A stretch of DNA of 47,922 nucleotides from Candidatus Bipolaricaulota bacterium (GTDB lineage: Bacteria > Bipolaricaulota > Bipolaricaulia > UBA7950 > UBA9294). This document shows positions 24,500 through 33,641 of this stretch, one piece after another. The stretch spans positions 1 through 47,922 of the forward strand of contig JAUWPW010000005.1 of NCBI GenBank assembly GCA_030611415.1. The letters run 5' to 3'. A program made the translations under genes and the position numbers. Each line of letters starts with the position of its first letter. Position 1 is the stretch's first letter. Below the pieces are notes generated by a model that made no database searches, had not been told where the DNA came from, and saw only the letters and a list, made by a program, of their open reading frames with translations.

Positions 24500-25369
24500 A
24501 TGAATCAGGGCTACGGAAGCCAAAACATGGCTGGCCATCTGCGGCGGGTTCTTGTCAAGCGCCCTGATTCTGCATTTGCTGTAAGCGACGCAGCGAGGTG
24601 GCACTACACCGGTCGGCCGAATCTGGAGATTGCCCTGAAGGAGCATGGCCGGTTTGTTGAGCTTTTGCACCGGGCCGGCACAGAGGTTGTCTATCATGAA
24701 GAGCCACAGCCCAAGCGTGCTGATGCGATCTACGTTCACGATCCCGCGTTCGTAACTGATAAAGGGGCGATTCTCCTGCATATGGGGAAACTGCTTCGAC
24801 GTGGGGAAGAAGAGGCGATTGGTCGACGATTTGAAAGCCTTGAAATTCCGATCTTCTACAAGCTGCATGGTGATGCGACAGCAGAAGGAGGAGATCTTCT
24901 GTGGATTGACCACGATACCCTTGCTGTTGGCCAAGGATTCCGCACCAATGGGGAAGGTCTGCGACAACTGACGCTGGCGATGCGTGCCTTGGAGGTAAAG
25001 GTCATCCCAGTTCCTCTTCCTTACTTCCAGGGGCCTGATGCTTGTCTGCACTTGATGTCGTTCATCAGTATCATCGGAGAGAAAATCGCGGTCGTCTATC
25101 CGTCTCTCATGCCGATCCCGTTCTGGCAAGAGTTACGTAATCGTGGATTTAGTTTTGTCGGGGTAGCGGATGAGGAGTTCCTAACTATGGCGGCGAATGT
25201 CCTTTCCCTCACACCGACAAGCTGCGTGATGCTTGCTGGAAACCCGATTACCAAGAAACGGCTTGAAGAAGTGGGATTCGAGGTACTAACCTACGCAGGC
25301 AACGAGATCTCACTAAAGGCAGAGGGTGGCCCGACTTGCCTTACCCGACCGATCCTGCGCACTGGTTAG
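24500..25369 (+). CDS. Arginine deiminase / amidinotransferase superfamily protein (DDAH-like)
   Basis: VKRPDSAF, ADAIYVHDPAFVTDKGAIL, EGGDLLWID, DACLHLMSFIS, C-terminal GGPTCLTRPI with presumptive catalytic Cys. Confidence 0.85.
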   Translation: MNQGYGSQNMAGHLRRVLVKRPDSAFAVSDAARWHYTGRPNLEIALKEHGRFVELLHRAGTEVVYHEEPQPKRADAIYVHDPAFVTDKGAILLHMGKLLRRGEEEAIGRRFESLEIPIFYKLHGDATAEGGDLLWIDHDTLAVGQGFRTNGEGLRQLTLAMRALEVKVIPVPLPYFQGPDACLHLMSFISIIGEKIAVVYPSLMPIPFWQELRNRGFSFVGVADEEFLTMAANVLSLTPTSCVMLAGNPITKKRLEEVGFEVLTYAGNEISLKAEGGPTCLTRPILRTG

Positions 25370-25378
25370 ATCAATACG

Positions 25379-25561
25379 GTGATGAGTGACGAGTCAAAAG
25401 TCAGCAGTCAGTTGGGTTCGTTGGGTTGGTAGAGTTCGTTGAGTAAGAAGCAGGAACTGAAAGCTGATCGCTGACCGCTGATAGCTCTTTCCTGAAAGCT
25501 GACCGCTGATAGCTGTTTGCTGATGGCTGAAGACTGAAAACTACTGACTGATGAGCTGATC
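25379..25561. repeat. Composite intergenic array: GT(G/C)Annn heptads x5, nonamer x4, GCTGAnn-type heptads x14
   Basis: Units can be read in register: gtgatga|gtgacga|gtcaaaa|gtcagca|gtcagtt; gttgggttc|gttgggttg|gtagagttc|gttgagtaa; actgaaa|gctgatc|gctgacc|gctgata|gctcttt|cctgaaa|gctgacc|gctgata|gctgttt|gctgatg|gctgaag|actgaaa|actactg|actgatg. Confidence 0.93.
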
Positions 25562-25719
25562 TGTGGCGAGGGAAAAAGCAGTGCCAAGTTATGCCAGCTA
25601 GGCGCAACTCGTTTTTCTAAGTGTTGTCACCGCACAGTCTTATCGGGTACATGTAGAAACCTACTAGGCACTGCCAAAGTTGACTGAAACTTCTCTCAAA
25701 GGTAGAATGGTTAATAATC

Positions 25720-25812
25720 GGAGGGGTAGTCAAGAGGTCTAAGACAACGGTTTGCTAAACCGTCGATGGGTTCATAGCTCATCCGCGGGTTCAAATCCCG
25801 CCCCCTCCGCCA
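25720..25812 (+). tRNA. tRNA-Ser (anticodon GCU), CCA encoded
   Basis: ggagggg/cccctcc acceptor, anticodon stem-loop cggtttGCTaaaccg, long variable arm, T-loop gttcaaatc. Confidence 0.93.
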
Positions 25813-25817
25813 GATTC

Positions 25818-25891
25818 GCGCCCGTAGCTCAGTGGATTAGAGCGTCGCACTCCGGATGCGAAGGTCGGAGGTTCGAATCCTCTCGGGCGTA
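25818..25891 (+). tRNA. tRNA-Arg (anticodon CCG), CCA not encoded
   Basis: gcgcccgtagctcagtggattagagc... tcgcactCCGgatgcga, gttcgaatcc, cgggcgt acceptor. Confidence 0.94.
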
Positions 25892-33522: not shown

Positions 33523-33602
33523 GTCTGCGACGTTCTGTTTAACGCCGGGCACTCCAACGGGACAGGCACGGCAGACAGAGCTTGAGCGAGAGGATCGGGC
33601 GA

Positions 33603-33623
33603 GCTGATCGCTGACGGCTGAAA
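33603..33623. repeat. GCTGAnn heptad x3, second locus
   Basis: gctgatc|gctgacg|gctgaaa. Confidence 0.85.
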
Positions 33624-33641
33624 GCTTCCTTTCTTCCTAGC

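Follow-up and report, generated by a model that had tools for sequence, protein, structure and literature searches.

A heptad array downstream of an ADI/DDAH-like gene in Candidatus Bipolaricaulota is probably a degenerate copy of a dispersed, modular intergenic repeat

Structure of the array and its locus

The window analysed here is a 47,922-nucleotide stretch of Candidatus Bipolaricaulota bacterium (contig JAUWPW010000005.1, forward strand). It carries a gene for an ADI/DDAH-like guanidine-modifying enzyme (Pfam PF02274 and PF19420; positions 24500–25369, + strand), with orthologues in three congeners, whose stop codon lies 9 bp upstream of a repeat array, in agreement with an initial sequence-only reading that had placed the array just past a deiminase-family gene. 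The next genes after the array are tRNAs, 160 bp on, namely tRNA-Ser(GCT) (25720–25812, + strand) and tRNA-Arg(CCG) (25818–25891, + strand). A promoter-like site before tRNA-Ser (25680–25708, + strand), assigned by consensus match only and kept in four species, is located outside the array, about 120 bp past it.

By direct reading, positions 25379–25553 are filled by three blocks of units, all on the + strand. Five GTSANNN heptads (GTGATGA, GTGACGA, GTCAAAA, GTCAGCA, and GTCAGTT; 25379–25413) are followed by four nonads of the GRGTTYRTN class (GTTGGGTTC, GTTGGGTTG, GTAGAGTTC, and GTTGAGTAA; 25411–25446; TRF period 9 and Markov test), a 9-bp linker (GAAGCAGGA; 25447–25455) joining the nonads to the CTGA heptads, and fourteen RCTGANN heptads running from ACTGAAA to ACTGATG in unbroken register (25456–25553; TRF and Monte Carlo). 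The RCTGA core is exact in 10 of the 14 heptads, with C and T at positions 2 and 3 in all 14. TRF reports periods 7, 14, and 28 at 25457–25530, including a 28-bp higher-order repeat at 25463–25530 inside the RCTGANN block, and period 9 at 25411–25441; in the period survey of the source genome, the segment 25379–25411 scores 14 at period 7. Within 350 bp of the spacer holding the array, self-matching peaks at a score of 29 for period 7 and 15 for period 9, each reached by 0 of 2000 Markov sequences. The array is thus a tandem period-7 repeat longer than chance, that is, a long heptanucleotide simple sequence repeat (SSR), and the division into five, four, and fourteen units proposed earlier is borne out. 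The 7-bp phase noted with it does not run through the whole, since the middle block has period 9 and the two heptad blocks, 78 bp apart, are out of common register when aligned on TGA. The window holds two further copies of such material: an island of GTGATGG and then GGATTAA heptads that occupies the whole gap between two genes (1590–1697, − strand; TRF and island survey), and a CTGA module with its usual interruption phrase (GAGCTGATCGCTGACGGCTGAAAGCTTCCTTTCTTCC; 33602–33637, + strand).

Short-period arrays in the genome and phylum

A 257-kb sample of the source genome, picked without searching for the GCTGA word, holds 10 arrays of period 7 and 11 of period 9 that exceed the threshold, where Markov copies yield 0.33 and 0; periods 4, 5, 6, 10, 11, and 13 gave no array. 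The anticipated excess at period 7 is therefore present, but period 9 is equally enriched. The expected restriction to intergenic DNA also held, as 144 of 151 period-7, -8, and -9 arrays were mainly non-coding in a larger genus sample, part of which had been chosen for its GCTGA hits. Numerous GCTGA arrays are found no more than about 500 bp from a contig end (contigs C33 and C39 of the source genome, G000; C3, C23, C30, C32, C91, C104, and C147 of the congener G002); assemblies seem to break at dispersed GCTGA repeats, and metagenome-assembled genomes (MAGs) probably undercount the arrays.

Across 100 genomes of the phylum, three-unit runs of GCTGANN occur in 18, those of GTCCANN in 15, and the nonad in 30. 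Reversed controls are near zero except in the genus itself, in which the reversed word AGTCG is one of its own words. GCTGA and GTCCA co-occur in 11 of the 100 genomes, belonging to 6 genera (p = 6e-5 by genus).

Composite organization of intergenic islands

The intergenic islands of the genus are mosaics of about ten short-period words of 7, 8, and 9 bp, including the heptads GTGATNN, GTCCANN, GGATTAN, AGTCGNN, and RCTGANN, the octad GTTGANTN, and the nonad GRGTTYRTN. Word pairs within islands are co-oriented in 145 cases and opposed in 3 in the genus sample (40:1 in the source genome alone), although some island counts take in orthologues of one island. The words also tend to follow an order, with GTTGA8 before CTGA7 (20:1) and GGTTC9 before CTGA7 (14:1), the preferred succession being roughly GTGAT7, GTCCA7 or GGATTA7, AGTCG7, GTTGA8, GGTTC9, CTGA7, and then TACCTG7 or CGCAGAGG9. 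This is a tendency only, as GTGAT7 is found on either side of GTCCA7; the window locus (GTSA, nonad, RCTGA) agrees with it. The words of the array, regarded as unrelated in the sequence-only reading, recur together elsewhere in the genus in fixed orientation and order.

The material between the words is shared as well. The linker TTGAGTAAGGAATCGCGAGCTGA has 22 copies with at most 4 mismatches, several of them exact, beside different genes at non-orthologous sites, compared with 0 in shuffles, and the nonad–linker–CTGA junction of the window array has two more copies with at most 4 mismatches in G002. In the source genome, 28% of the sampled intergenic bases match another of its intergenic regions (tRNA genes included). 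On account of the shared linkers, fixed orientation, and intergenic cross-matches, we regard the window array as a piece of a dispersed composite repeat. The earlier proposal of unit-length copying or binding selection, in preference to fresh microsatellite expansion, named the right pair of options; the array is, however, no self-contained local expansion.

The dispersal of whole phrases is also what would be expected if the arrays represented the termini or relics of a non-autonomous mobile element, or if a templated enzyme, a reverse transcriptase for example, had added them, and the inverted pairs seen in other bacteria (described below) fit that origin as well. Within the family, reverse transcriptase genes show a weak preference for genomes with arrays (7 of 12 versus 4 of 21, p = 0.05), but the array-rich relatives G008, G001, and G003 have no detected reverse transcriptase, Y1 transposases abound whether or not a genome carries arrays, and neither defined ends nor a target duplication was seen. 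Such an origin is accordingly improbable. As candidate dispersal agents or makers of the arrays, neither enzyme clearly tracks their presence, and a phage origin was rejected, there being no match among phage records. Reverse transcriptase domains are patchy in the family, those of the source genome lying at C26:108199, C51:2254, and C19:24.

At the window locus, the RNA of the array is no more folded than shuffles (z = +0.62) and no terminator was found, which rules out a hairpin or terminator role there. The orientation of islands to neighbouring genes, counted per island, is 25:15 (p = 0.15); an apparent link between word orientation and neighbouring genes (p = 1e-4) had come from counting the words of one island separately and was discarded. 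Because the RNA is unstructured, no terminator is found, the tRNA promoter-like site lies outside, and the orientation to genes is not significant per island, it is most likely that the array is a tolerated spacer between the ADI-like gene and the tRNA promoter, rather than a terminator, promoter, or structured RNA.

Unit turnover and conservation of the core

The set of modules in the orthologous spacer is different in three congeners, with octads replacing the nonads in G002 and GGATTA and GTCCA heptads present in G001; among congeners, the RCTGA part is longer or shorter by exactly 7 or 14 bp. In the orthologous alignments, gaps in period-7 context measure 7, 7, 7, and 49, together with adjacent gaps of 1+6 and 2+12 that were summed by hand, leaving over a 3 and a 1; among other intergenic gaps, 1 of 82 is a multiple of 7 (a 7), and most are 1–2. 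The 7-bp phase thus survives because whole units come and go, and the unit turnover foreseen in the sequence-only reading is seen here between species. The arrays stand at one syntenic place in four separately binned species, and arrays of the RCTGA word also occur in complete Pseudoalteromonas and Agrobacterium plasmids; an assembly artefact, to which the several GCTGA hits a few hundred bp from contig ends might point (such hits are expected where repeats break assemblies), can be set aside with near certainty.

Among 16 copies of the CTGA module anchored on the linker, information content is 1.44–1.85 bits at the RCTGA positions but falls to 0.34 and 0.12 bits at the two spacer bases; the core is 90–98% kept, and the spacer bases are nearly random. 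Several of these copies are mutually related, but because all were found by the linker and not by the core, the contrast was not made by the search. Substitutions in core and spacer at the orthologous locus alone amount to few changes. Equal decay of all heptad positions is excluded, and simple neutrality does not describe the decay. This leaves selection on the core, a unit-making process that specifies the core only, or a shuffling within arrays of units with differing spacers; the conservation is no proof of selection, as slippage-moved units could scatter spacer bases too.

These results bear on the usual dismissal of degenerate heptad arrays as microsatellites, according to which polymerase slippage acts preferentially on units of about 7 nt and every array had its own origin and is now decaying neutrally. 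The unit-by-unit change of array length, the avoidance of coding DNA, and the finding that heptads outnumber all other long SSRs in many bacteria (Mrazek 2007, as cited in PMC4679880 and PMC4692102) all suit such an origin. It does not, however, provide for linkers, word order, and orientation common to separate loci, for nonads as frequent as heptads, or for a core retained as the spacers drift. We consider an ordinary neutral microsatellite quite unlikely and, given the shared linkers, disfavoured as a full account.

Altogether, the 180 bp probably represent one degenerate copy of an intergenic repeat of the genus that is modular, directional, and dispersed. The dispersal of phrases and linkers, the fixed orientation, the preferred order, the change of length by whole units, and the conserved RCTGA core with free spacers were each directly observed. 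As for the processes behind them, units may be gained and lost by replication slippage or by unequal exchange of one unit length, preserving the phase; phrases would be copied from one intergenic site to another by recombination or template switching; and the RCTGA core may be kept because a site recurring at a 7-bp pitch is recognised or because the copying process dictates it. With words that are ordered, co-oriented, and changing by whole units around a kept core, the question of whether such arrays are polymerase noise or sites becomes testable by genome comparison.

The RCTGA word in other bacteria

Four-unit runs of GCTGANN are present in many phyla and in complete plasmids. In 42 GCTGA-carrying genomes from many phyla, outward pairs (TCAGC..GCTGA) number 866 and inward pairs 26 with overlapping units counted, the reversed control giving 2. 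Outward matches occur in 30 of these genomes and inward matches in 8, with an excess outward in 29 and inward in 2. At named loci the outward and inward pairs stand at 39 to 5, often within 30 bp of both flanking genes, and in other genera of the family to which the window belongs at 3:0. No outward pair of arrays on opposite strands was found at the window locus or in the sample of its own genus. The outward pairs enclose a short, often AT-rich spacer and often fill the intergenic gap (loci L069–L187 and 42 named genomes), with up to 241 pattern matches in one genome, that of an Acidobacteria MAG, and 150 in the cyanobacterium Tildeniella.

The spacer dinucleotides of paired arms in three genomes are not significantly complementary (7 of 38 versus 3.9 expected), which argues for recognition arm by arm rather than as a hairpin. 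We tentatively suggest, as a reading with somewhat less than even chances, that RCTGANN arrays form one cross-phylum class, usually an outward pair of the form [TCAGCNN]n–short spacer–[NNGCTGA]n that often fills an intergenic gap and is recognised or built by a widely shared factor, and that the genus of the window absorbed one arm into its multi-word composite. The one-way polarity across phyla offers a cheap lead to whatever recognises or builds the word.

It is possible, though rather doubtful, that the array is instead simply a selected array of binding sites, with RCTGA read at 7-nt intervals by a DNA- or RNA-binding factor that regulates or organises the nearby region. The conserved core with free spacers and the polarity of the word in many phyla are consistent with this, and similar sites have been proposed as IHF/HU sites in Geobacter (PMC2700814) and the TAACTGA repeats as sites of a translational regulator (PMC4679880). 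The factor and its function nevertheless remain putative; the window locus has no tie to a promoter, terminator, or structured RNA, islands counted singly show no significant bias in orientation relative to genes, and congeners carry different modules at one site.

Only RCTGANN clearly recurs beyond the genus, together with the nonad in Desulfurivibrio (56 hits; reversed control, 13). A word vocabulary common as a whole across phyla is unsupported by the 8-kb loci around GCTGA arrays, and GTCCANN was rejected as a cross-phylum word, being found in 9 of 42 genomes with an equally common reversed control. In Desulfurivibrio sp. SURF_16, of an unrelated phylum, the 56 copies of the nonad GGGTTTGTTGAGTTTG lie beside a second nonad, CAACTCAAG (L223–L232). 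At another locus, a GCTGA heptad array directly adjoins a CRISPR-like array with the repeat CGTAATCCCTTCGTAAATCAGGTCAGGTCGGTC (L145:3600–4000). Other dispersed intergenic repeats were also met, namely a palindromic element with GCTGGATTCCGGCGCCTGCCCTGGA, a GGGGTCAGACCTTCATTT element, and a CACGGATGAACACGGAT 12-mer (L058:19286–19500, L068:2700–2900, and L064–L068).

Comparison with known systems

The kind of repeat found here is already known, and the comparison with heptanucleotide repeats of cyanobacteria alone, as first drawn, was too narrow, the same word class having been described elsewhere (PMC4679880, PMC2700814). In the literature searched, from which most subscription literature is missing, we met neither a multi-word directional composite nor a cross-phylum polarity, and none of the repeat words of the genus as a described repeat; the novelty of the composite and of the cross-phylum polarity rests on this absence, which is weak evidence.

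One close match is the direct repeat TAACTGA, described from Beggiatoaceae, Cyanobacteria, and Bacteroidetes (MacGregor 2015, PMC4679880). Read as ACTGATA, TAACTGA is an RCTGANN word; the repeats are intergenic, show indels in 7-nt steps between Cyanothece strains, and are mixed with other heptamers in Microcystis, as in the islands described here. The exact unit is absent from all 14 RCTGANN units of the window, so that the word class is the same but the word is not. In the Guaymas filament, one exact word lies mostly just upstream of start codons, unlike the window array with its free spacers, and no fixed multi-word order with octads and nonads is described for these repeats (PMC4679880).

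Class 1–3 repeats of Geobacter metallireducens are putative sites of global regulators (PMC2700814). According to the figure legends, on which this comparison is based, class 3 consists of five MTYCTGA heptads, with a CTGA core as in the window array, its sites forming pairs on opposite strands that are drawn as reading outward, whereas the window array has a single side and belongs to a composite; a further family in the same source has TWGTTGAY octads, near the GTTGA octad of the genus. The GGGNATC heptads of Xanthomonas and the GGGGA(C/T)T heptads of Nostoc are likewise degenerate, intergenic, and strongly variable in length among relatives, but are G-quadruplex-forming words without composite order (PMC4692102).

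The over-representation of heptads among long SSRs of prokaryotes has been attributed to slippage and polymerase contact (Mrazek 2007, as cited in PMC4679880 and PMC4692102). As represented in those citations, that account deals with single-word repeats, in contrast to the linked, ordered, and dispersed words of the genus. In their overall arrangement the islands resemble BIME/REP elements, which are palindromes with a GTAG or CGTC tag (PMC3733652); the window array contains no such palindromic unit, its units being untagged direct repeats, and the motifs of the genus are tandem-repeat arrays. Both, however, are dispersed extragenic mosaics built of a few motifs in ordered combinations.
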